Assembly (NCBI RefSeq): GCF_900113055.1
Contig: NZ_FONZ01000003.1
Coordinates: 62,001 to 126,000, forward strand
Reading direction: 5' to 3'
Length of the DNA: 64,000 bases
From: Flavimobilis marinus
GTDB taxonomy: Bacteria; Actinomycetota; Actinomycetes; Actinomycetales; Cellulomonadaceae
Shown: positions 44,781-64,000 of the stretch, piece after piece
Position numbering within the stretch: position 1 is the stretch's first letter
Layout of the letters: the number at the start of each line of letters is the position of its first letter
Made by a program: the position numbers and the translations under genes
Notes under the pieces: model-generated
The model's database searches: none
Seen by the model: the letters and a program-made list of their open reading frames with translations, nothing else
What the model was told of the DNA's origin: nothing

Positions 44781-44784
<4 letters not shown>
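43939..44784 (-). CDS. ABC transporter ATPase, PepT (DppF/OppF) family
   Basis: The 281-residue ATPase has Walker A in GIVGESGSGKSTTAK, the signature LSGGQRQRVAIARAL, Walker B in IIVADEPTSALDVS and the switch His in VFISHDIQTVRYV. The C-terminal HPYTRTLLGAAP block is typical of peptide/opine/nickel-type ATPases. It pairs with the ATPase domain fused to the permease upstream. The ATG overlaps that gene's stop by four bases. Confidence 0.95.
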
Positions 44785-46856
<2,072 letters not shown>

Positions 46857-49587: not shown

Positions 49588-49661
49588 AATATAACCCACA
49601 GACGCGTTGATGCAAAGACCCCGCCGTACCGATACGTTTCGACCGTGACTTGGAGAGCGAC

Positions 49662-50372
49662 ATGACCAGGACTGTCCCGACCTCACCCCCGATGCGCCGG
49701 TCGACGGTGGCGGACCAGATCCGTGAGCTGATCCTCTCCCGGGGTCTGCGGCCCGGCGACGCGCTCCCCACGGAGTCCGTCCTGTGCGAGACCCTCGGCG
49801 TCTCGCGCTCGTCGGTGCGCGAGGCCGTCCGCACGCTCGCGACCCTCGACATCGTCGAGGTGCGCCACGGCCACGGCACCTTCGTGGGGCAGATGTCCCT
49901 CGACCCGATGGTCCAGGCGCTCGTGTTCCGCGGCGTCCTGTCCCCCGGTGACAACCTGCGCGCGCTGCGCGAGGTCGTCGAGGTCCGCATGGCGCTCGAC
50001 CTCGCCGTCGCGGAGAAGGTGGTCGCCGCCGCCGCCGGCGAGACCCACCCCGAGCTGCGCGCGCTCGTCGACGAGATGCTCACGCACGCCGACCACGGCG
50101 AGACGTTCCTCGACGCCGACCGCCACTTCCACACCATGCTGCTCGAGTCGATCGACAACCAGCTCGCGGGCCAGCTAGTCGGAGCCTTCTGGGACATCCA
50201 CACCGCGGTGCTCCCCCGGCTCGGGCTCGCCCTCCCCGAGGACCTGCGCCAGACCTCCAAGGCGCACGGCGACATGCTCGCCGCGGCCGAGGGTGGCGAC
50301 GTCGCGGCCTACCGCGAAGCCGTCATCAAGCACTACGAGCCGCTGCAGCGCGCTCTGGATCACGCGAACTGA
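49662..50372 (+). CDS. GntR-family regulator, FadR subfamily, probable sialic acid regulator
   Basis: The 236-residue protein has an N-terminal winged helix (about 12-80: VADQIRELILSRGLRPGDALPTE, LGVSRSSVREAVRTL, VEVRHGHGTFVG) and an all-helical FCD ligand domain (about 95-230) with conserved Asp and His residues for metal binding, as in NanR. The ATG at 49662 has GGAGAG upstream; an ATG at 49650 lacks it. Its position between sialic acid import and breakdown genes and the palindrome beside it support a NanR-like role, but the effector is inferred. Confidence 0.92.
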   Translation: MTRTVPTSPPMRRSTVADQIRELILSRGLRPGDALPTESVLCETLGVSRSSVREAVRTLATLDIVEVRHGHGTFVGQMSLDPMVQALVFRGVLSPGDNLRALREVVEVRMALDLAVAEKVVAAAAGETHPELRALVDEMLTHADHGETFLDADRHFHTMLLESIDNQLAGQLVGAFWDIHTAVLPRLGLALPEDLRQTSKAHGDMLAAAEGGDVAAYREAVIKHYEPLQRALDHAN

Positions 50373-50373
50373 C

Positions 50374-51522
50374 ATGACACACAAGACTCTTGGTTACGGC
50401 ATCATCGGGGCCGGCTACTTCGGCGCCGAGCTCGCCCGGATCATCCACGCCCTGCCCACCGCGCACGTCGCCGCCGTGTGCTCGCCCGAGGACGCCCCGG
50501 CGCTCGCTGCCGAGGTCGGGTGCGACGTCGTCGGCTCCGTCGCGGAGCTCGTCGCACGCGACGACGTCGACGTCGTCGTCATCGCCTCGCCCAACGACGT
50601 CCACCTCGAGCCCGCGCTGCTCGCCGCGCGCCACGGCAAGCACGTGTTCTGCGAGAAGCCCGTCGCCCTGAGCTACGCGGACGCCGACGCCATGGTCACC
50701 GCGTGCGCCGAGGCCGGCGTGGTCTTCATGGCCGGCCACGTCATGCACTTCATGGACGGCGTGCGGCGGACGGCTGAGCTCATCGCCGCGGGCGGGATCG
50801 GCGACGTCCTGCTCGCGCGCGCCGCCCGCACCGGCTGGGTCGACGAGGAGCACGAGTCCCCCGGCACGCCGTCGTGGAAGCGCCAGCGCGCCCGCTCCGG
50901 CGGCCACCTGTTCCACCACATCCACGAGCTCGACGTCGTCCAGCTGCTCCTCGGGCCAGCCGAGCGCGTCGTGATGGCCGGCGGCAACGTCGCCCACCAG
51001 GGCACCGCCGCCGACGAGGACGACCTGCTGCTCGCCACGCTCGAGCACGGGCCGGGCCGGTTCTCCCACCTCGAGTGGGGCTCGGCGTACCGCCGCCCGG
51101 AGCACTACGTCGAGCTGTTCGGCACGCGGGGCACGGTCCGCATCGACTTCCAGGAGGTGGGCGTCGAGGTCCGCACGCCCGACGGCGTCACCCGGTTCCC
51201 CCTGCACCGCTCCGACGCCGAGGACGCCGAGCGCCGCGTCGAGTACGCGGCCTCCCGCTCGGGCGGCGGGGTGGACTACGGCAACCCCGCCATGCGCCCG
51301 CCGGGCTGGCTGATCGGCATCATGGAGCGCGAGGTCGCCTACCTGCACGCCCTGCTGCGCGGCGAGCGCGAGCCCGACCCCCTGCTCGCCGGACTGACCG
51401 ACGGGCACGCCGCCCGCGCCTCGATCGCCACGGCCGAGGCCCTCACCCGCTCGCTCGCCGAGGACCGCAAGGTCTCGGTCAGCGAGGTCCCCGACGCCGC
51501 ACCCCCCGCCCGAGAGGACTGA
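50374..51522 (+). CDS. Gfo/Idh/MocA-family oxidoreductase in the sialic acid locus
   Basis: The 382-residue protein has an N-terminal Rossmann domain: GYGIIGAGYFGAELARII, then VVIASPNDVHLEPALLAARHGKHVFCEKPVALS with the family EKP motif. The C-terminal alpha/beta substrate domain includes GGHLFHHIHELDVVQLLLG. It starts one base after the regulator's stop codon and precedes nagA. Sialic acid operons of other bacteria contain a Gfo/Idh/MocA oxidoreductase (YjhC/NanOx) that converts 2,7-anhydro- or unsaturated sialic acid to Neu5Ac. A similar role here is a reasonable inference, but another sugar oxidation is possible. Confidence 0.9.
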   Translation: MTHKTLGYGIIGAGYFGAELARIIHALPTAHVAAVCSPEDAPALAAEVGCDVVGSVAELVARDDVDVVVIASPNDVHLEPALLAARHGKHVFCEKPVALSYADADAMVTACAEAGVVFMAGHVMHFMDGVRRTAELIAAGGIGDVLLARAARTGWVDEEHESPGTPSWKRQRARSGGHLFHHIHELDVVQLLLGPAERVVMAGGNVAHQGTAADEDDLLLATLEHGPGRFSHLEWGSAYRRPEHYVELFGTRGTVRIDFQEVGVEVRTPDGVTRFPLHRSDAEDAERRVEYAASRSGGGVDYGNPAMRPPGWLIGIMEREVAYLHALLRGEREPDPLLAGLTDGHAARASIATAEALTRSLAEDRKVSVSEVPDAAPPARED

Positions 51523-51524
51523 CC

Positions 51525-52652
51525 ATGCTCGTCCAGGCCGACCGCATGCTGCACGACGACGGCACGCTCGCCCCCGGCTGGGTGCGCCTGGACGGGGAGC
51601 TGATCGCCGACGTCGGGCGCGGGGACGCTCCCGACGCGCCGGACGTGCTGGTGAGCGTGCTGTCGCCCGGGCTGGTCGACGTGCACTGCCACGGCGGGGG
51701 TGGCGGCTCCTTCGCGACCACGGACCCGGCCGAGGCCCGCCTCGCGCTCGACGCGCACCGCCGGCACGGGACGACGACGACGATCGCCAGCCTGGTCACC
51801 GCGCCCCACGAGGTGCTGCTCACCCAGGTGGCGTTCCTCGCGTCGCTCACCGACGCCGGCGAGATCGCCGGCACCCACCTCGAGGGCCCGTGGTTGAGCC
51901 CCGCGTTCTGCGGCGCGCACGACCCTGCGCTGCTTGAGGCCCCGCTCGCCGAGCGCACGGACCCGCTGATCGCGGCCGGCCGCGGGACGGTGCGGATGGT
52001 CACGCTCGCGCCCGAGCTCGAGGGCGGGATCGAGGCGGTCCGCCGCCTGACCGCCCAGGGGGTGCAGGCCGCCGTCGGGCACACGGACGCGGACGAGACC
52101 GTCGTGGCCGACGCCGTCGACGCCGGGTCCCGCATGGTCACGCACCTGTTCAACGCGATGCGCCCCATCCACCACCGCGCCCCCGGCCCCGTGCCGACCG
52201 TGCTGGACGACCCGCGCGTCACCGTCGAGCTCGTGGCCGACGGCGCGCACGTGCACCCGCTCGTGCTCGACCTGGCGTCCCGGGCCGCCGTCGGCGGGTT
52301 CGTGCTCGTGACCGACGCGATCGCCGCGGCGCTGGCCCCGGACGGGCAGTACCTGCTCGGTGAGCTCGAGGTCATCGTCACCGACGGGGTCCCGCGGCTC
52401 GCCTCGAACGGGTCCATCGCCGGCTCGACGCTGACGCTGCACCGGGCCGTGCAGGTGATGGTCGAGTCCGGCTGCCCGCTCGAGCACGCCCTCGTCGCGG
52501 CGACCGCGACGCCCGCCGACGTGTTCGACCTCGGCGGGCCGGGCGGCGTCGGACGGCTCACGCCGGGCCTGCGCGCGGACCTGCTGGCCCTCACGGACGA
52601 CCTGGCCGTCACGGCCGTCATGCGCGCCGGCACCTGGCTCCGCACCCCCTGA
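51525..52652 (+). CDS. nagA: N-acetylglucosamine-6-phosphate deacetylase
   Basis: The 375-residue amidohydrolase has SPGLVDVHCHGGGGGSF with the metal-site H-x-H, GTHLEGPWLSPAFCGAHDP with the metal Glu, AAVGHTDAD and MVTHLFNAMRPIHHR with metal His residues, and VLVTDAIAA with the catalytic Asp. It removes acetate from GlcNAc-6-P, the step between NanE and NagB. It starts two bases after the oxidoreductase stop. Keeping it on the opposite strand from nagB means both promoters must fire for complete use. Confidence 0.96.
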   Translation: MLVQADRMLHDDGTLAPGWVRLDGELIADVGRGDAPDAPDVLVSVLSPGLVDVHCHGGGGGSFATTDPAEARLALDAHRRHGTTTTIASLVTAPHEVLLTQVAFLASLTDAGEIAGTHLEGPWLSPAFCGAHDPALLEAPLAERTDPLIAAGRGTVRMVTLAPELEGGIEAVRRLTAQGVQAAVGHTDADETVVADAVDAGSRMVTHLFNAMRPIHHRAPGPVPTVLDDPRVTVELVADGAHVHPLVLDLASRAAVGGFVLVTDAIAAALAPDGQYLLGELEVIVTDGVPRLASNGSIAGSTLTLHRAVQVMVESGCPLEHALVAATATPADVFDLGGPGGVGRLTPGLRADLLALTDDLAVTAVMRAGTWLRTP

Positions 52653-52789: not shown

Positions 52790-54436
52790 TCAGTAGGTGA
52801 AGCGGGAGACGTCGGCGCGCAGGCGGGTCGCCATGGCCGCGAGGTCCGCGGTGCGCTCAGACATCTGGTGGATGACCGTGGTGGTCTCCTCCGACGTCTG
52901 GGCGACCGTCTGCACGCTGCCGGCGATGTCGCTCGAACCCGTCGCAGCCTCCGAGACCGAGCGGGACATCTCGTTGGTCGTGGCGGTCTGCTCCTCGACC
53001 GCGGAGGCGATCGTGAGCTGGTAGTCGTTGATCGAGGCGATGATCTGGCTGATCTCGTCGATCGCCGAGACCGCCCCGGCGGTGTCCGCCTGGATCGCCT
53101 CCACCCGGCGCGCGATGTCCTCGGTCGCCCGCGCGGTCTCCTGCGCGAGGTCCTTGACCTCGGACGCGACGACGGCGAAGCCCTTGCCCGCCTCGCCGGC
53201 CCGGGCGGCCTCGATCGTCGCGTTCAGAGCCAGCAGGTTCGTCTGCTCCGCGATGCTCGTGATCGCTTTGACCACGTCACCGATCTCCTGGCTCGACGTA
53301 CCCAACCGGGCAACCGTCTCGCTCGTGCTGTGCGCCACGCCGGTGGCCTGTGAGGCGACCCGGGCCGCCTCAGCCGCGTTCTGGGCGATCTCCCGGATCG
53401 AGGCACCCATCTGCTCCGCACCGGCGGCGGTCGTCTGCACGTTGCGCGACACCTGCTCCGCCGAGGCCGCGACCGACGCGATCTGCTCAGACTGCTCGCC
53501 GGTCGCTGCGGTCACCTGGCCGGCGCCGGCCATCATGTCCTGGCTCGTGGTGTCCAGCTCGGTCGCACGGTCGCCGAGGTCGGACAGGGTCGTGCGCAGC
53601 GCGGTCTGCGCCGTCGTGAGGTCGCGCGCCATCTGCCCGATCTCGTCGTTGCTCGCCACGGTCGCGGTGACGGTCAGGTCGCCGCCGGCCATCGCGCCGA
53701 GCGACGCGCGCACGGCGTCGACCGAGCGCCGGATGCCGCCCGCGACGACGAACCCGAGCCACGTCGCGACGAGCACGGCCGCCAGGAGCACCACGACGAG
53801 GGTGAGGAACGACTGCTCGCCCGACGCCTCGGCGTCCGCCGCGATCCCCTCCGAATACGCGTCCAGCAGCGCCTTCGTCGCGTCGAGCGCGTCGACGTAG
53901 GTGTCCTTGAGCGGCTCCGCCTGCTCGGTGAAGACCGACGCGTAGGTCGCGCGGTCGTCCGCGAGGATCGCAGGCACGAGCTGGTTGTCGCGCACGTCCT
54001 TCCAGGCGGTCCAGCCCTCGAGGAACACGTACCACTCCTGCGGGGTCAGCCCGGCGGCCGCCGCCTCCAGCGCGGTGATCGCCCCGTCGATCTCGGCGTC
54101 GTTCTCGACCTGGTCGGCGAGCCACGCCTCCTTGGCCGACGCGCTCGGGGCGGCCGCCGCCTGCCCGACGATCATGCGCGCCTTGAGCTGGCCCTGGTGC
54201 ACGGTCTGCAGCGGCGAGAGGACCGCCGTCTGCACGGTGGTGAGCGACCCGACGTCGTCGGTCAGGTTCTTGATGCCGGCACCCGCGACGACGCCGCTGC
54301 TGATCGCGGCGACGGCGAAGAGGGCGACGACGCCGAGGATCTTGGTGCGGACCCCGAGGTCGCGGAGCTTGCGCCGCGGGGCGGCCTGGGTGGTGTCGGC
54401 TGTGGTGACGGGTGTAGCAACGGCCGAGGTGCTCAT
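52790..54436 (-). CDS. methyl-accepting chemotaxis protein (receptor 5 of the operon)
   Basis: The 548-residue receptor has TM1 near 32-54, an external helical domain of about 145 residues (four-helix-bundle type) and TM2 near 200-222. A HAMP domain follows, then the signalling domain. The hairpin tip [30 protein letters not shown] is intact. The protein ends VSRFTY and has no CheR/CheB tether pentapeptide. The ATG has AAGGAGG 8 bases upstream. Its signalling half is nearly identical to that of receptors at 58884 and 60131; its sensor part is different. Confidence 0.95.
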
Positions 54437-54512: not shown

Positions 54513-56102
54513 TCAGATCGTGAAGGTCGAGACCTTCTGGCGCAGGCCGTCGGCCACGGCCACGAGCTCGGCGACGGCGTCGCTCATCTGCGTGACGGTG
54601 GCGCTCGAGGACTGGGCGGACTCGGCGACGCCGGTGATGTTGGTGGCGATGTCGCCCGAGCCGTCCGCGGCCTGGGCCACGGAGCGGGACATCTCGTTGG
54701 TGGTCGCCGTCTGCTCCTCGACCGCCGAGGCGATCGTCATCTGGAAGTCGTTGATCGAGGAGATGACCTCGGTGATCTGCTCGATCGCGTGCACGGCGGA
54801 CGCCGTCTGGGACTGCACGTCGGCGATCCGGCGAGCGATGTCCTCCGCGGCCCGGGCGGACTCACCCGCGAGGTCCTTGACCTCGGACGCGACGACCGCG
54901 AAGCCCTTGCCGGCCTCGCCGGCGCGCGCCGCCTCGATGGTCGCGTTCAGCGCCAGCAGGTTCGTCTGCTCGGCGATCGACGTGATCGCCTTGACGACGT
55001 TGCCGATCTCCTGGCTGGACGCCCCGAGCGCGCCGATCGTGACCGCCGTCGCCCCCGAGATCTGCACGGCCTGCGCCGCGACGCGGGCGGCCTCGGCCGC
55101 GTTCTGCGCGATCTCGCGGATCGACGCGCCCATCTCCTCCGCACCGGCGGCGGCGGACTGCACGTTGCGCGAGACCTCCTCCGCAGCCGCGGCGACGACG
55201 CCCGCCTGGGCGGAGGTCTCCTCGGCTACGGAGGACACGTGGGTGTTGGCGCCGGAGAGCTGCTCCGCCGACGCGGCAACCACGCGAGCGTTCTCGACGA
55301 CGTGGGTGAGCACGTCACGCAGCTGCTCCTGGGCCGTGTTGTACGCGTGCGCCATCTGGCCGAGCTCGTCCTCGCTGGACGCGGTGACGTCGTGCGTGAG
55401 GTCGCCGGTCGCGAGGACCTCGAGCGAGGTCCGGACGGCCGCGACGTCGCGGGTGATGCGGCGCACCACGAGCCCGGTCAGGGCGAGCGAGACCGCGGTG
55501 CCGACCACGAAGCCGACCGCCAGCACGACGATCATGGTGCGGATCTCCTGCTGGGCGGCGGCGAGCAGCTGGCCGACCTGCACGTCGATCTGCGCCTGGG
55601 CGAGCACGAGGGCCCGCCCGGTGCGGTCCGGGTCGGCCGCGACGTCCGCACCCATGGCAGCCTCGACGCCGACGGCGTCGCCCGCCTCGGCGAGCGGGCG
55701 CAGGACGGCGTCACGGTAGGTCGTCCAGGCGTTCCAGCGGGCGACGAAGTCACGCCACTGCTGGGTGTCCGACTGCCCGTAGCTGCTCACCGACTCGATC
55801 AGCCGGGCGACGTCGCGGTCGTTCCAGTCCGACGACGTCAGGTACTGCGCGCGCGCACCCTCGTCGGTCGCTCCCGCGGCGCGGCGCACCAGCAGGTTGC
55901 TGGTCTCGACGGCGGCGCGGAGGTCGCCGAGACTCGTCTTGAGTTCGCCCGTGAGGACGTTGAGCTCCTTCATGTTCGACTCGGCGCGCACCAGCGCGAC
56001 GGCACCCGACCCGCCGACGAGGGCGAAGACGCCGAGGAGCACGAAGGCCGCGGCCAGGATCTTCACGCCGACGGGGCGGTTCCAGAACCAGGAGGTGTTC
56101 AT
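54513..56102 (-). CDS. methyl-accepting chemotaxis protein (receptor 4), coupled to a sugar-binding lipoprotein
   Basis: The 529-residue receptor starts [19 protein letters not shown] with TM1 near 13-33. An external helical domain (about 34-190) precedes TM2 near 195-215. HAMP and signalling domains follow with the intact tip. It ends VSTFTI. Its ATG shares one base with the stop of the upstream sugar-binding lipoprotein gene (TGATG), so the two are translated together. This suggests that the receptor reads the loaded binding protein. The frame is open to 56390, but that is antisense to nothing useful and lies inside the lipoprotein gene. Confidence 0.95.
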
Positions 56103-57187
56103 CAGAGTTCCGCCTTGTCGAGGAAGCCCGAGTCGAGCAGCAGGGCCTCGTAGTTGTCCTGGGTGACGAGCACGGGCGGCAGCACGTAGGTCGCGACGAC
56201 CTTGGCGCCGTTGTCGTAGGTCACGACGTCGTTCGTCTCGGGCTCGTGGCCCTTGAGGAGCGCGTCGCCCATGGTCACGACGACCTCGGCGAGGAGCGCC
56301 GAGTCCTTGAAGATCGTGGAGGTCTGCGCGCCGTCGCGGATCAGGCGCGCGGCGCCGAGCTGGGCGTCCTGGCCGGTGACGACGGGCCACGGCTGGGCGT
56401 CGGTGCCGTACCCGGCGGCCTCGGCCTTGGCGAGGATGTTCTCGGCGAGCGTGTCGTTGGGAGAGAGCACGGCGTCGACCCGCGTGCCCGCACCGTAGTG
56501 CTTGCTCAGCAGCTCTTCCATGCGGGCGCCGGCGGTCTCGCCGTCCCAGCCGGGGGTGGCGACCGTCTCGAACGCCGTCTCACCCGAGCCGACGACGAGG
56601 GTCCCGTCGCTCAGGTACGGCTCCAGGACGCTCATCGCGCCCTCGAAGAACAGGGACGCGTTGTTGTCGTCCGGCGAGCCGGCGAAGACCTCGATCGAGA
56701 ACGGCCCGGCGACGCCTGTGGGCTGCCCGAGCTCGTCGAGCACCCCGAGCCCCTGCAGCAGGCTCGTGCCCTGCTGCAGCCCGACCTTCTGGTTGTCGAA
56801 GGTCGCGTAGTAGTCGATGTCCGCGGTGCCCGTGATGAGCCGGTCGTAGGCGATGACCGGCACGCCGTCGGCCGCGGCGGTCGCCAGCGGCGCCCCGAGC
56901 GCGGAGCCGTCGATCGAGCCGACGATGAGGAGGTCCGCGCCCGCGGCGAGCTCGGCGTCGAGCTGCGAGACCTGCGTGGCGACGTCGTCCTGCGCGAAGT
57001 ACAGCTCGACCTCGTGGTCGAGCAGCTCCAGCTGCGTCTTGAGCGCGTTGCCCCGCACCACCCACGCCTCTTCCGCGTCGGTCGGCATGAACACGCCCAC
57101 CCGGCTGGTGGGTGCGTCCGCGGTGCATGCCGCGAGCGGGAGCACGAGCGCTGCCGCCAGGGCAGCGCCGAGGTACGTGCGTCTCAT
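56102..57187 (-). CDS. periplasmic-type sugar-binding lipoprotein (XylF/ChvE-like), receptor partner
   Basis: The 361-residue precursor has a lipoprotein signal ending LPLAACTAD (Cys21). The mature part is a type I sugar-binding fold: [74 protein letters not shown]-like [37 protein letters not shown] and [11 protein letters not shown]. This resembles XylF and ChvE, which bind xylose, glucose or galactose. No permease or ATPase gene is nearby; a chemoreceptor overlaps its stop instead. It is probably a dedicated chemotaxis sensor anchored outside the membrane. Confidence 0.92.
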
Positions 57188-57277: not shown

Positions 57278-58882
57278 CTACACCCGGTAGGCATCGACCT
57301 CGTCACGCAGCTGCGTCGCCAGCCGAGCGAGGTCGGCCACCGTGCCGCCCATCGCGGCGACCGTCTCGTCCGAGCTGCCCGCGGCGGCGGCCACGCTCGA
57401 GATGCCGTGCGCGATCTCCCCCGAGCCGGACGCGGCGAGCGTCACCGAGCGGGACATCTCGCCCGTGGTCGCCGTCTGCTCCTCGACCGCCGCGGCGATC
57501 GTCGCCTGGAAGTCGCTGATCGAGCCGATGATGGTCGCGATCTCCGCGATCGCTGCGACGGCAGCCCCGGTCCGGGACTGCACCTCGGCGATCCGGACGG
57601 TGATCTCCTCGGCCGCCCGGCCCGACTCCGCGGCGAGCTCCTTGACCTCGGTCGCCACGACGGCGAACCCGCGGCCCGCCTCCCCCGCGCGCGCCGCCTC
57701 GATCGTCGCGTTGAGGGCGAGCAGGTTGGTCTGCGCGGAGATCGCGGTGATCACCTTCACGACGTCGCCGATCTCCTCGCTCGCCGCGCCGAGCGCCCGG
57801 ACCGTCTGCGCAGTCGTCTCGGAGAACTGCACGGCGGACTCGGCCACCCCGGACGCCTCCGCGGCGCTGCGGGAGATCTCTCGGATCGAGCTGCCCATCT
57901 CCTCGGCTCCCGCCGCGGCGGAGGCGACGTTGTGGGAGAGCTGCTCGGCGGCGTCGGCGACGACGACCGCCTGCTCGCTGGTGCCGCGGGCCGCCTGCGC
58001 CACGGACGCGTTGATCTCGCCCAGCTGGTCGGCAGACTCGCTCACCACCGCGGCCGAGCGCCGCACGGCGCCGACCAGCTCGCGCAGCGTCTGCGCGGCC
58101 TGGTCCACCGCGGCTCCCGTCCGCCCCAGCTCGTCGCGCGTCGTCATGCCGGTCTCCCTCGTGAGGTCGTGCGCGACGATCGCGTCAGCGACGTCGCGAA
58201 TCCTGGTGAGCGGGCGGACCACCGACCGCGTCACGGCGACGGCCAGCAGCGCGGCCGCGATCGTCGCCAGGACCGCGGCGACGAGCAGCATCACGCGCGC
58301 CGTGCCCTGGGCCTGCTCCTGCTCGGCCAGCAGGTCGAGCGACCGCTGCTCGGCCGAGTCCTGGAGCTGGTCGGCCAGGCTCGAGATCGTGCGGTACGCC
58401 TGGCTGGCCGGACCGCTGTTCAGCGACTCGAGCGCCTCGGCATACGAGCTGGCGGAGCCCAGCACGAGCCAGGCGACGACGCCGGAGTCCCACTTGTAGA
58501 AGTTGTCCCACTCGGCCTTCATCGTCGCGAACATCGCAGCCTCGTCGGCCGTCATCCGGGACATGTCCACCCCCTCGAGCCAGGCGAGCACCTCCTTCTT
58601 GCGCGCGACGAACGTCTTGCGGTTCTGCCCGTCGAGGGCCGCGTCCTTGCCGTTCACCGCGCCGTCGGCCACCACCAGCGACTGCCAGCGCGTCATGTCG
58701 GCAATCTGGAAGCGCGCGGCCTCCGCGTCACGCAGCACCCCGGACGTCAGGCGCACCTGGTCGGACAAGTGCGCCTGCTGCTGCACGGCGAGGATCCCGA
58801 TCCCGCCGGAGGCGAGCACCAGGACGTTCACGAGCGCGAACGCCAGGCCGAGGCGGACGCCGATGCTGCGGTGAGCGAGCAT
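57278..58882 (-). CDS. methyl-accepting chemotaxis protein (receptor 3)
   Basis: The 534-residue receptor has TM1 near 8-33, an external helical domain to about 190, TM2 near 193-217, HAMP ([21 protein letters not shown]) and a signalling domain with the tip [30 protein letters not shown]. It is the most divergent of the five: the tip starts ISAQ instead of IAEQ and the C-terminus is VDAYRV instead of the FT-aromatic or FTI end of the others. It begins one base after the stop of the receptor at 58884. Confidence 0.95.
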
Positions 58883-58883
58883 G

Positions 58884-60098
58884 TCAGATCGTGAACTGCG
58901 CGACGCGGACCCGCAGGTCCTCGGCGAGGCGGGACAGCTCGTGCACCGCGCCGCCCATCTGCGTCACCGTCTCGGTGGACTTGCTCGCGGCCTCGGCGAC
59001 GCCGGTGATGTTCGTGGCGATCTCGCCGGTGCCGGTCGCGGCCTCGGCCACGGAGCGCGACATCTCGTTGGTCGTGGCCGTCTGCTCCTCGACCGCCGAG
59101 GCGATCGTCAGCTGGTAGTCGTTGATCGAGGCGATGATCTCGCTGATCTCGCTGATCGCGGAGACGGCGCCCGCGGTGTCGGCCTGGATGGCCTCCACGC
59201 GGCGCGCGATGTCCTCCGTGGCCCGCGCGGTCTCCTGCGCGAGGTCCTTGACCTCCGAGGCGACGACGGCGAAGCCCTTGCCCGCCTCGCCGGCCCGGGC
59301 GGCCTCGATCGTGGCGTTCAGGGCCAGCAGGTTCGTCTGCTCCGCGATGCTCGTGATCGCCTTGACGACCGTGCCGATCTCCTGGCTGGAGGTCCCCAGG
59401 CGCGCCACCGTGTCGCTCGTGCTCTGCGCGACGCCCGTGGCCTGCGCGGCCACCCGGGCGGCCTCGGCCGCGTTCTGGGCGATCTCCCGGATCGAGGCGC
59501 CCATCTGCTCCGCGCCGGCGGCCGCCGTCTGCACGTTGCGCGACACCTGCTCCGCCGCGGCGGCCACCACGCCAGCCTGCGCGCTGGTCTCGTCCGCGCT
59601 CGCGCTGACCTCGCCGTTCGACCCGGCGAGCTCGCCGGCCGAGACGCTGATCGCGCCGGTCGTCGCGGTGAGCGCACCGAACATCTCGGCGAGCGCTCCG
59701 CGCGCCTTGTTCAGGTCGGCGGCCGCACGGCCGAGCTCGTCGCCGGAGTACACGGGCGCCTCGACCGAGAGGTCGGCACGCGACATCGCCTCGAGCGAGA
59801 CGTTGAGGGCGGTGATCGCGCGGCGCATCGCGTTGCCGTTGCGCTTGGCGATCACCAGGCCGATGAAGAACGCGACGACGATGAGGGCCGTCATGATCCA
59901 GATCATCGAGCGCGCGTCCGCGGCGACGTCGTCGGGCACGTCGGCCTTGGCGACGCCGGAGAGTGCGACCACACCCAGGATGTAGACGGCGAGCATCGCG
60001 AGCGACGGCGTCGCTACGTTCTGCCAGTTGCGGCCGGCGATGCTGGCCTTGCGCACGGTGGGCGCGGTGGCGGTGGTTGGGGTGGTCATGTGAGCCAT
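58884..60098 (-). CDS. short methyl-accepting chemotaxis protein without external sensor (receptor 2)
   Basis: The 404-residue receptor has two membrane segments (about 31-49 and 65-84) separated by only about 15 residues, so no external ligand domain is present. A cytoplasmic N-terminus of about 30 residues, a HAMP-like linker and a full signalling domain with the standard tip complete it. It ends VAQFTI. It may report membrane or energy state, or act within arrays of other receptors. GAGG 6 bases before the ATG supports the start; a second ATG lies nine bases on. Confidence 0.93.
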
Positions 60099-60130: not shown

Positions 60131-61732
60131 CTAGAAGGTGAAGGCGTCGACCCGCGTGCGCAGGTCGGCGGACAGGCGTGCGAGCTCGGCGACGGAGTCG
60201 CCCATCTCGGCGACCGTGCGGCTGGACTGGGCGGCGACGCTCGCGACGCCCGTGATGTTGGTCGCGATCTCGTTGGAGCCCGTGGCGGCCTCGGCCACCG
60301 CGCGCGACATCTCGTTCGTGGTCGCGGTCTGCTCCTCGACCGCGGAGGCGATCGTCAGCTGGTAGTCGTTGATCGAGGCGATGATGGCGCTGATCTCGCT
60401 GATCGCGGTCACGGCCCCGGCGGTGTCGGCCTGGATGGCCTCCACGCGGCGCGCGATGTCCTCCGTGGCCCGCGCGGTCTCCTGCGCGAGGTCCTTGACC
60501 TCCGAGGCGACGACGGCGAAGCCCTTGCCCGCCTCGCCGGCGCGGGCGGCCTCGATCGTGGCGTTCAGGGCCAGCAGGTTCGTCTGCTCCGCGATCGACG
60601 TGATCGCCTTGACCACATCACCGATCTCCTGGCTCGACGTGCCCAACCGGGCGACCGTCTCGCTCGTGGACGCCGCGACACCGGTGGCCTGCGAGGCGAC
60701 CCGCGCGGCCTGCGCCGCGTTCTGCGCGATCTCGCGGATCGAGGCACCCATCTGCTCCGCGCCGGCGGCGGCCGTCTGCACGTTGCGCGAGACCTGCTCC
60801 GCGGCGGCGGCGACCACGCCCGCCTGGGCGCTGGTCTCCTCGGTGCCGGACGCGACCCGCTCCCCCGACGACGCCAGCTGGTCCGCGGTGCCGGCGACCG
60901 TCGTCGAGCTCGCCGAGACGCCCGCGAGCATCTCCGCGAGCGCGACACGCGCCGTGTTGAGGGCCTCGCCCGCCTGGGCGAGCTCGTCGCGCGAGTACAG
61001 CGGGGCGTCCTGCGTGAGGTCGCCGCCCGCCATGGCGTTGAGCGAGCCCTGCAGGCCCGCGACCGAACGCTTGATCCGGCGTGAGACCTGGGCGCCCAGG
61101 AGGACCGCGGCGGTGATGCCCGCGAGCAGCACGACCAGGGTGACGATCATGCCCTGGCGCGCGGCGGCGTCGGCCTCGTCGAGCGCCGAGGCCGCGTACG
61201 CCTGCGCATCGGCCTGCAGCGCGTCGATGTCCGCGAGGTACTGGTCGATCGCCGGCTGCAGCGTGCTCTTGAGGAAGAGCGAGTAGTTGGAGCCGTTGCC
61301 GGACTCCATCGCGATCGGGATCATCTTCTCGTCGCGCACGGAACGGTACGAGCCGGTGTTCATCACCAGCTGCTCGTACGGGATCAGCTGGCCGACGAAG
61401 GTCCCGACGTGTGCGAGCAGCGCGTCGACCTCGGCGTCGCTCTCCGCCAGCCGCCCCGCCCACATGTCCTTCGAGTTCTGGTCGGTCGCCGCAGCGATCT
61501 GGGCCACCGCGAGCCGGCCCTCGAGCTGCGCCTCGACGAGCTCGCCGAGCGGGAGCTGCAGGTCCTCCGAGACGTCGTGCACCACCCGCGCCTTGGCGCT
61601 CAGCTGGTTCATCAGGCCGACGGCAACACCGCCGACGAGCACGGCGGTCAGCGCGCCCACGCCGATCATCAGGGCCAGGCGCTTGCCGAGGGTGACGGTC
61701 CGGCCGCGCAGGACCGGGAGTCGCACAGCCAT
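60131..61732 (-). CDS. methyl-accepting chemotaxis protein (receptor 1)
   Basis: The 533-residue receptor has TM1 near 17-42, an external helical domain of about 160 residues and TM2 near 195-218. HAMP ([25 protein letters not shown]) and a signalling domain with tip [30 protein letters not shown] follow. It ends VDAFTF. AAGGAGA precedes the ATG. It follows cheW by 26 bases and is the first receptor of the operon. Confidence 0.95.
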
Positions 61733-61758: not shown

Positions 61759-62184
61759 TCAGACCGTGACCGCGGCCGCGGCCCGGATGTCGAGCGCGAG
61801 CAGGAGACCCTGCTCGAGCTTGTAGACGCCGACGATCAGGTCGCGCACCGCCGGGTCGAGGGTGTCGGGCACGCCCTCGAACTGCGCGTCGGCGACCTCG
61901 AGGACCTCGCCCACGGAGTCGACCAGAAGGCTGACGGCCTCCCCGTCGACCTCGACGACGACCATCATCGGCTCCGCCTCGGGCGGCAGGGCCGGCAGAC
62001 CCAGCCGGGGGCGCAGGTCGAGCGTCAGGACGACCTGGCCGCGCAGGTTCACGAGCCCGGCGACCCCGCGGGGCGCCTGCGGCACGAACGTGCGCGCCTG
62101 GTGTCCCAGGGTCTCCTGGACGTGCATCACGGGGACGCCGTAGGTGGCGTCGGCGATCTTGAAGGTCACGTACTGGCCAGCCAT
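61759..62184 (-). CDS. cheW: chemotaxis coupling protein CheW
   Basis: The 141-residue protein is a single CheW domain: [39 protein letters not shown] with the conserved N-x-R-G receptor- and CheA-binding block, and [22 protein letters not shown]. It joins receptors to CheA at the membrane. Its ATG shares one base with the cheA stop (TGATG). CheA itself carries a second CheW-like domain, so two coupling surfaces exist. Confidence 0.97.
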
Positions 62185-64000
62185 CAGGCGTGCACCATCC
62201 CTGCGTCGAAGGAGGCGAGGAAGGACTCGGAGTCGAAGTCCTCCTCGAAGTAGTCGGGGTCTGCCGACTGCAGGAGCGTGTGGAGGTCGACGACCTCGGT
62301 GACGCGACCGCCGAGGACCACGAGGCCCGTGCTGCCGTAGGCGTCGCTCGGGCGGCGCTCGGCGCCGCGGTCGTTGGCGATCTCGAGGATCTCCCCGACG
62401 ACCATCGCGACGTTGTGGTTGCCGCGGCTGAAGACGACCATCGGCAGCTCGGTGGCCGCGTGGTTGCCCATCGCCCCCAGGGCCTCGGGCAGCCGCATGA
62501 CCGGCAGGATCGCCCCGCGGTACTGGAGCACCTCGCGGTTGCCGAGGATCTCGATCCGGTCGGTGGAGATCTGCTCGAGGCGCGTGACGGCCTCGAGCGG
62601 GATCGCCGCCCGGCGCCCGTCGCCGATGCCCACGACGAGCAGGTCCTCGCCGTCGACCTCCTGGACCGCCTGCGCGCGGGCGGCGTCGGCCGCGACGTCG
62701 CCGATCTCGCCGACGAGCGACCGGCGCGCGATCGCCTGGACGTCCAGGATCAGCGCCACGCGGCCGTCTCCCATGAGGGTGGCGCCCGCGTACGTGCCCG
62801 TGCCCTTGAGCTGCGAGGCGAGCGGCTTGACGACGATCTCCTCGTTGTTCAGCACGCGGTCGACGACGAGGCCGAACCGCTGGTTGTCCGCCCGCAGCAC
62901 GGCGATGACCATCGAGCCGTCGCGGTCGCTCGTGGTGCCGAGGACGTCGGTGAGCCGGACGAGCGGCAGCAGGTCGCCGCGCAGGCGGTACACCTCGGCG
63001 GAGTTGATCAGCTCGATCGCCTCGGCGGTGCGCGTGGTGTCGAGCGCGACGAGCTCGAGGAGGTTCACCTGGGGGATCGCGTAGATCTCCTGGCCCGACG
63101 CCACGGTCAGCGCCGGCATGATCGCGAGGGTGAGCGGGATGCGCAGGCGCCAGACGGTGCCCGAGCCCTTCTCCGACTCGACCTCGACCTGGCCACCGAT
63201 CGACTCGATGTTGCTGCGGACGACGTCCATGCCCACGCCACGGCCGGACACGTTGGTGACCACAGCCGCCGTCGAGAAGCCGGGCAGGAAGACCATGTTG
63301 AGGATCTCGGCGGTCGACATCGCGTCGAGCTGCTCCGACGTGCGCAGGCCGCGCTCGAGCGCCTTGGCCGCGATCACGTCGGGGTCCATGCCCTTGCCGT
63401 TGTCGCGCACCTCGACGATGACCTGGCCACCGGCGTGGTAGGCACGCAGCGTCAGCGTGCCCGCCGGCGTCTTGCCCGCGGCCTCGCGGACGTCCGGCAT
63501 CTCGATGCCGTGGTCGACCGCGTTGCGCACCAGGTGCGTGAGCGGGTCCTTGACGGACTCCAGCAGGCTGCGGTCGAGCTCGGTGTCGCCACCGATCATC
63601 TCCAGCTCGACCTGCTTCTTGAACCCCGACGCGAGGTCGCGCACGATGCGCGGCATCTTGTTCCAGATGTGGTCGATCGGCTGCATGCGCGTCTTCATGA
63701 CGCCCTCCTGCAGCTCGGTCGCGATCAGGGACAGGCGCTGCGAGGACCGCGTGAGGTCCGGGTTCGCGTCAGGACCGGCGAGCTGGGCGATCTGGTTGCG
63801 GACGAGCACGAGCTCGCCCACCTGGCGCATCAGCTCGTCGAGCAGGTCGACGTCGACGCGGATCGAGGAGTCGCTCGACGACCGCACGGCCTGGGACTGC
63901 TCGGCCGCGGCCGGGGCTGCCGGGGCGCTCGCGGGCGTGGCCGTCGGCGCCGGCTGTGTTGCCGCGGGGGGCGCCGGGGCGACGGGCGCCGCCGGGGCGA
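62184..64000 (-). CDS. cheA: chemotaxis histidine kinase CheA, 3' part, with two CheW-like domains
   Basis: About 605 codons are visible; the phosphotransfer (HPt) and CheY-binding domains lie beyond 64000. A Pro/Ala-rich linker at 63890-64000 leads into the dimer domain [19 protein letters not shown]. The kinase domain has [13 protein letters not shown] (N box), [13 protein letters not shown] (G1) and [19 protein letters not shown] (G2). The first CheW-like domain (about 63140-62720) contains [20 protein letters not shown] second, CheW-like unit (about 62660-62240) contains [19 protein letters not shown] and [19 protein letters not shown]. It probably heads the receptor operon. Confidence 0.95.

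Follow-up and report, generated by a model that had tools for sequence, protein, structure and literature searches.

The gene for a ChvE-like solute-binding lipoprotein overlaps that for a methyl-accepting chemotaxis protein (MCP) in a chemotaxis cluster of Flavimobilis marinus, and our data are best read as a single recruitment, in which a binding protein of transport became a dedicated co-receptor anchored by lipid. We hold it probable that the two genes make a two-part chemoreceptor, in which the binding protein is dedicated, descends from a ChvE of transport and docks on its paired receptor. "The window" is the whole stretch of 64,000 nucleotides that was analysed, from a genome of 2.9 Mb in 11 contigs (99.8% complete). 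A relative of sugar-uptake proteins has seemingly been reassigned from feeding to steering in this flagellated actinobacterium.

The gene pair and its surroundings

The cluster (Table 1) runs in one direction: cheA and cheW are followed by three MCP genes, then, after 90 bases, by the genes for the binding protein and its receptor and, after another 76 bases, by one further MCP gene. The chemotaxis context of the pair is therefore plain. The binding-protein frame opens with the ATG at 57187 and closes with the TGA at 56104-56102; the receptor ATG lies at 56102-56100, base 56102 being common to the stop and the start, and the first-pass annotation had thus placed the pair and its one-base overlap correctly. 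A listed open reading frame of 625 aa (54513-56390) extends this receptor frame to a GTG further upstream; we favour the ATG at 56102 as the start, since stop and start overlap in the same way at 48 other intact junctions (see below). The receptor carries both domains that mark an MCP, MCPsignal (E 9.7e-30) and HAMP (E 1.3e-10). Among the neighbouring receptors, the MCP at 58884-60098 (minus strand) is much shorter than the others (404 aa) and, since its HAMP domain already lies at residues 92-136, apparently has an extracytoplasmic sensor domain that is very small or missing. On the opposite strand beside the cluster (49650-52652, plus) are genes for a GntR-type regulator, a Gfo/Idh/MocA-type dehydrogenase and an N-acetylglucosamine-6-phosphate deacetylase-like protein, the last scoring below that model's cut-off.

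Table 1. Positions, within the window, of the binding protein, its receptor and the chemotaxis genes around them.
Feature	Position	Strand	Basis
ChvE-like solute-binding lipoprotein, 361 aa	56102..57187	-	ORF, Pfam, PDB matches, AlphaFold2 model
Methyl-accepting chemotaxis protein (MCP), presumed cognate receptor, 529 aa	54513..56102	-	ORF and Pfam
TGATG stop/start junction, binding protein to receptor	56100..56104	-	read from sequence
Lipobox LAAC, predicted acylation site C21	57125..57136	-	read from sequence
Extracytoplasmic helical-bundle sensor domain of receptor, about residues 41-190 (limits by eye)	55533..55982	-	AlphaFold2 model and VIA-align
Codon of W93, candidate docking residue of receptor	55824..55826	-	sensor alignments
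HAMP domain of receptor, residues 211-263	55314..55472	-	Pfam
MCP signalling domain of receptor, residues 337-493	54624..55094	-	Pfam
Three more MCP genes upstream of pair	57278-58882, 58884-60098, 60131-61732	-	ORFs and Pfam
Additional MCP gene downstream of pair	52790..54436	-	ORF and Pfam
cheW	61759..62184	-	Pfam
cheA-like kinase gene, ORF from GTG start	62184..63887	-	H-kinase_dim, HATPase_c and CheW domains

The binding protein matched Pfam Peripla_BP_4 (E 3.5e-51), and its closest relatives of solved structure were an ABC-transporter binding protein (4wwh, E 1.1e-94) and ChvE (3urm, E 1.5e-92). The xylose-binding protein 3m9w gave a far weaker match (E 2.9e-34), so that the protein is ChvE-type and not XylF-type; of the earlier description as "XylF/ChvE-like" only the second half stands. 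The same held for structure: the AlphaFold2 model (pLDDT 90.5) superposed on ChvE 3urm with Z 47.4 and rmsd 1.4 over 328 aligned residues, and fold and full-length sequence similarity thus both place it in the ChvE family. Its score against the NCBIfam ChvE model NF040907 was 413 bits, below the curated cut-off of 460, as were those of its 94% identical relative (L011, 410) and a Georgenia protein (L051, 430); scores above it were obtained for the genome's own transport copy (L002, 478), for receptor-linked L016 (480) and L050 (483), and for L012 (560). Since those above the cut-off comprise the genome's other copy, a Micromonospora transporter copy and two of three receptor-linked proteins from other genera, the window's protein is regarded as a diverged member of the family; its homology to ChvE is certain, its status as an equivalog is not.

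The first 21 residues read as a signal peptide ending in a lipobox, LAAC, with C21 as its cysteine, which are the two marks of a lipoprotein, and a loose lipobox pattern was present at all 82 receptor-linked loci (some genomes represented by more than one locus). Judging from these letters, the protein is probably anchored to the membrane through lipid.

That no permease or ATPase accompanies the lipoprotein, as had been noted at first pass, was borne out: neither of the two genes that would flank a CUT2-type binding protein (ATPase and permease) is adjacent. The CUT2-type permease family PF02653 has 8 matches in the genome and none within the 64-kb window, and a gene scan from 44.8 to 63.9 kb found ABC genes of the peptide class (Opp/Dpp) only and no sugar-type permease. 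We considered an orphan permease next door, fed by a shared binding protein, and on the matches to PF02653 rejected it: 0 of the 8 fall in the window, and one belongs to the operon of a second ChvE-like protein. This second protein (46% identical) is encoded 119 kb away on the same contig, and downstream of its gene come a 519-aa gene, in which ABC-ATPase motifs were seen by eye, and the 390-aa PF02653 permease gene. Among the best 80 relatives of the binding protein in public genomes, 73 were followed by an ATPase related to the 519-aa one, 6 by a receptor like that of the window, and 1 had an MCP gene upstream; the six came from an uncultured Cellulomonadaceae bacterium (94% identical), two Actinotalea, Cellulomonas triticagri and two records of Georgenia satyanarayanai. 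Within the scanned region, the open reading frame at 44781-46856 (minus) encodes a fused Opp/Dpp-type permease (residues 26-278) and ATP-binding protein (about 375-653), and it lies beside separate genes for a permease and for a substrate-binding protein.

Conservation and descent of the pair

We surveyed 200 genomes of the family with the first 210 residues of the receptor as query (E 1e-8), matches of 156 bits or more being called strong. Sensor matches were obtained in 62 of the 200 genomes and strong matches in 54, the next match down scoring 102 bits. Directly upstream of the strong sensor was a ChvE-like gene in 52 of the 54 (51 intact, and one, in L152, split between two frames); in the other two (L157 and L168) another MCP gene stood there instead. 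The genes overlapped by 1 or 4 bases at 49 of the 51 intact junctions (the window's included) and were parted by a gap of 1 base at two, with TGA as the binding-protein stop codon at all 51; an overlap kept at 49 of 51 junctions exceeds chance by far. ChvE-like proteins as such were commoner, at least one (E 1e-60 or better) being present in 183 of the 200 genomes. The receptor frame of L152 is open, and the split in its binding-protein gene may represent a sequencing error or decay. One further locus (L106) was labelled "other" and excluded, no downstream gene being seen in the stretch examined.

An order-wide sample of 396 genomes gave strong matches in the window's own family (13) and in a second family (f77; 4), and an even sample of 396 genomes across the phylum matched only the window's own; because both searches scored a limited number of first-look candidates from each genome (7 in most rows), weak relatives could have escaped them. 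The pair was present in all four genomes of the second family, each with an in-frame ATGA overlap. That the pair is widespread in the phylum was rejected on these samples.

When the window's pair was compared with that of the 94% identical relative, dN/dS was 0.12 for the binding protein, 0.10 for the sensor and 0.03 for the rest of the receptor; the binding-protein gene is under purifying selection and is therefore kept. Flagellin was found in all 54 genomes with a strong sensor versus 47 of the 146 others (Fisher p 7e-21, kinship not corrected). Within the genus the receptor was present in four of five flagellated genomes, the fifth (G004) having MCPs without this receptor, and the sole genome without flagellin and MCPs was also without the receptor.

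In a FastTree tree of 140 binding proteins, a single branch (support 72) separated the 54 receptor-linked sequences from all others, and without the window's own pair of sequences the receptor-linked group had support 95. These 54 sequences are not the 54 strong-sensor genomes, since identical sequences were collapsed, named loci were added and G118 occurs twice; L152, L157 and L168 have no full binding-protein row. The sensor-domain tree, from which L119 was omitted, likewise grouped 54 linked receptors (SH-aLRT support 93), with the unlinked L157 and L168 outside, in a tree whose outgroup is not one clade and which has long branches. In the first locus set, 31 linked receptors scored 231-545 bits against the first 265 residues of the window's receptor (545 being itself), and the next MCP scored 81. 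As both linked partners group in the trees, a single recruitment fits, with the two unlinked receptors as the older state; L157 and L168 would then possibly preserve a receptor free of any binding protein. The proposal made at first pass, that the lipid-anchored binding protein is dedicated to its receptor, is well supported by the conserved pairing, the single branch, the association with flagellin and the separate transport copy.

Ligand, transport role and docking

Residues of the binding proteins were compared between 53 receptor-linked and 84 transporter-linked sequences, one of the two G118 rows (L155) being dropped. ChvE positions K13, R17 and D21 are D37, A41 and R45 in the window's protein. 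R17 and D21 were each found in all 84 transporter-linked and in 51 of the 53 receptor-linked proteins and were missing only from the window's protein and its nearest relative; a further departure from near-universal residues is A297 for R. Positions 13, 17 and 21 presumably belong to the loop and helix that follow the first strand and border the ligand cleft in this fold, and from its place R17 may touch the ligand in ChvE. Because of these three departures (A41, R45, A297) and the NF040907 score below the cut-off, sugar binding is not transferable from ChvE. The sugars proposed by the first-pass annotation are a guess from homology, and that part of the proposal needs trimming, since near-invariant residues near the presumed cleft have changed in the window's lineage.

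It is possible, if on the unlikely side, that the protein of this lineage has left sugars altogether and either binds another ligand or serves as a structural, ligand-free receptor subunit. This overlaps with the two-part chemoreceptor and changes only its ligand. The replacement of otherwise near-invariant R17 and D21, together with K13, in a gene nonetheless under purifying selection speaks for it; on the other hand, the motifs DRL, SPDDNNA, GQDA and FKD, which are thought to line the ligand pocket, are kept, other receptor-linked proteins keep R17, and contact of R17 with the ligand is itself read from position in ChvE. On a rather doubtful extension, which we offer as speculation, a single event converted the transport protein to a membrane-tethered, amount-matched chemoreceptor subunit and the window's lineage later changed its ligand; the compound that guides the cell would then be one which its own ChvE transporter does not import.

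Two residues mark the receptor-linked proteins, E301 (53 of 53, versus 16 of 84 transporter-linked) and D151 (52 of 53, versus 22 of 84), whereas three others (ChvE numbering) are relaxed among them: Q189 (83 of 84 transporter-linked versus at most 1 of 53), Y200 (84 of 84 versus 15 of 53) and G218 (83 of 84 versus 3 of 53). The former may face the receptor and the latter may be sites that face a permease in the transport proteins. These data bear on whether the binding protein is used as in E. coli, that is, whether it also feeds a sugar transporter encoded elsewhere and so serves both uptake and taxis. The ChvE fold and much of the ChvE motif set are indeed kept, and a ChvE-type ATPase and permease are present in the genome; but the transporter operon has its own binding protein, residues essentially fixed in the 84 transporter-linked proteins (Q189, Y200, G218) are lost or relaxed in the 53, and the receptor is found only in flagellated genomes of the sample. 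We consider such shared use improbable.

The Pfam model 4HB_MCP_1 matched the receptor at 24.1 bits, sub-threshold relative to its cut-off of 27, and a search of the PDB with the sensor sequence gave no match at E 10. In the AlphaFold2 model of the receptor (pLDDT 78.1, pTM 0.56, 7 sequences), the sensor matched four-helix-bundle (4HB) sensor domains in VIA-align with Z values up to 12.8, at which helical bundles can also match by chance. It resembled the Tar and Tsr sensor domains at Z values in that chance range, and the LytS sensor (5xsj, from the XylFII-LytS complex) at Z 11.2 and rmsd 2.7 over 118 aligned residues, where a chance bundle match is likewise possible. The resemblance to LytS, Tar and Tsr is weak evidence, by analogy, for the two-part chemoreceptor.

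A candidate docking residue, W93, came from the sensor alignments. Identical rows were collapsed, and the 55 linked rows hold the window's receptor twice (WIN and L119) and that of L152. W93 occurred in 55 of 55 linked rows (the window counted twice) and was replaced by S in both unlinked relatives; none of 3 distant sensors and 8 other MCPs (sets that share one row) has it. The sensors have 34 positions with conservation of 98% or more, and two of these, W93 and G162, differ in both unlinked receptors, a contrast that was noticed after looking and draws on two unlinked receptors. The model places W93 at a break in helix 2, not clearly at the membrane-distal tip; we suggest that it may be part of the docking site.

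That the two genes are plain neighbours, the receptor sensing small molecules directly and the binding protein being an unrelated passenger of the operon, is very improbable given 52 of 54 adjacencies, 49 of 51 overlaps, partner-specific similarity of the sensors and co-grouping in both trees, although some four-helix-bundle receptors do bind ligands directly, as described for two of the four in E. coli (PMC12415202).

Proposed mechanism and known systems

In the two-part chemoreceptor that we propose, the binding protein would be exported and held by lipid on the outside of the cytoplasmic membrane, where its two lobes would close on a small ligand, for which a monosaccharide or something akin to one is the likeliest candidate. 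It would dock on the receptor of the overlapping gene, at the helical-bundle sensor domain, and an altered contact would pass through the HAMP domain and the signalling hairpin to change the activity of CheA and hence the swimming bias. The overlapping stop and start would couple translation and keep the amounts of the partners matched. The binding protein would have arisen once from a transport ChvE in an ancestor of Cellulomonadaceae and Georgenia; it would no longer serve a transporter, uptake being left to the separate ChvE operon.

The pair looks, by analogy, built to work like known binding-protein systems. BasB and CosB of Halobacterium salinarum are lipoproteins whose genes adjoin a transducer gene, and they are not known to have a transporter. 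XylFII-LytS comes from a Gram-positive Clostridium. The binding proteins of E. coli are periplasmic and common to transporter and taxis, and Agrobacterium ChvE itself acts in both uptake and signalling. The literature describes BasB/BasT and CosB/CosT as binding proteins working with taxis transducers, as would be the case here, whereas those are archaeal and have other ligands, and the present pair is bacterial, of ChvE type, derived from a transporter copy and encoded by overlapping genes. Binding proteins that act in sensing, their partners being kinases or other proteins, are similarly described for XylFII-LytS, CuaD-CuaS (Ruminiclostridium cellulolyticum) and GlnH-GlnX (Corynebacterium glutamicum). 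XylFII contacts the LytS 4HB domain via helices 3 and 4; CuaD, a predicted lipoprotein, is a second binding protein encoded beside the sensor gene and binds CuaS, which the transporter's CuaA does not; and GlnH has been shown to be a lipoprotein. These are alike in using a binding protein for sensing through a partner; their outputs are kinases and the control of genes or enzymes, whereas the partner here is a chemoreceptor.

Binding-protein-mediated taxis is presented as established in E. coli, with subtilis and C. jejuni also named, and two reports have the E. coli binding proteins interact with the four-helix-bundle domain of the MCP (PMC12415202, PMC6321045). MglB is given as periplasmic and shared with the transporter (PMC4990184), and a further source states that receptor activation by binding proteins is widespread and that Gram-positive binding proteins are membrane-tethered (PMC9602780). 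By comparison with the periplasmic, transporter-shared proteins that serve the 4HB chemoreceptors of E. coli, the protein studied here is a lipoprotein gene-paired with one receptor. With ChvE and ChvE-type transporters it has family and fold in common, and it differs from the latter in having no transporter genes adjacent and in belonging to a receptor-linked group with its own conserved residues, e.g., E301.

What is new here is a Gram-positive, ChvE-derived, gene-paired binding protein with a chemoreceptor as its partner; the principle is already known elsewhere, and no paper on binding-protein-linked chemoreceptors of Cellulomonadaceae was among the matches listed in the open-access literature. 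The first-pass annotation had called a dedicated lipid-anchored sensor in a Gram-positive cell a separate design. The dedicated pair is well supported; the separateness is not complete, since binding proteins serve the Halobacterium transducers and the sensing by XylFII-LytS, CuaD-CuaS and GlnH-GlnX. The pair adds a Gram-positive chemoreceptor case to the dedicated sensory binding proteins of halobacteria and Gram-positive kinases. Dual use of a binding protein in E. coli blurs what the receptor needs of it; in a conserved one-to-one pair such as this, the transport copy and the receptor's unlinked relatives can serve as natural controls for telling receptor-facing from permease-facing residues.

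A reversed arrangement was seen in a Micromonosporaceae metagenome-assembled genome (L074, 1-2043), where an MCP gene is followed, after 48 bases, by a gene for a ChvE-like lipoprotein, with no ABC gene after it within the 4.1 kb examined. The locus was excluded from the pair counts, its MCP being upstream and its protein grouping elsewhere. As this protein does not group with the receptor-linked set, the locus may represent a second, independent pairing of an MCP with a ChvE.
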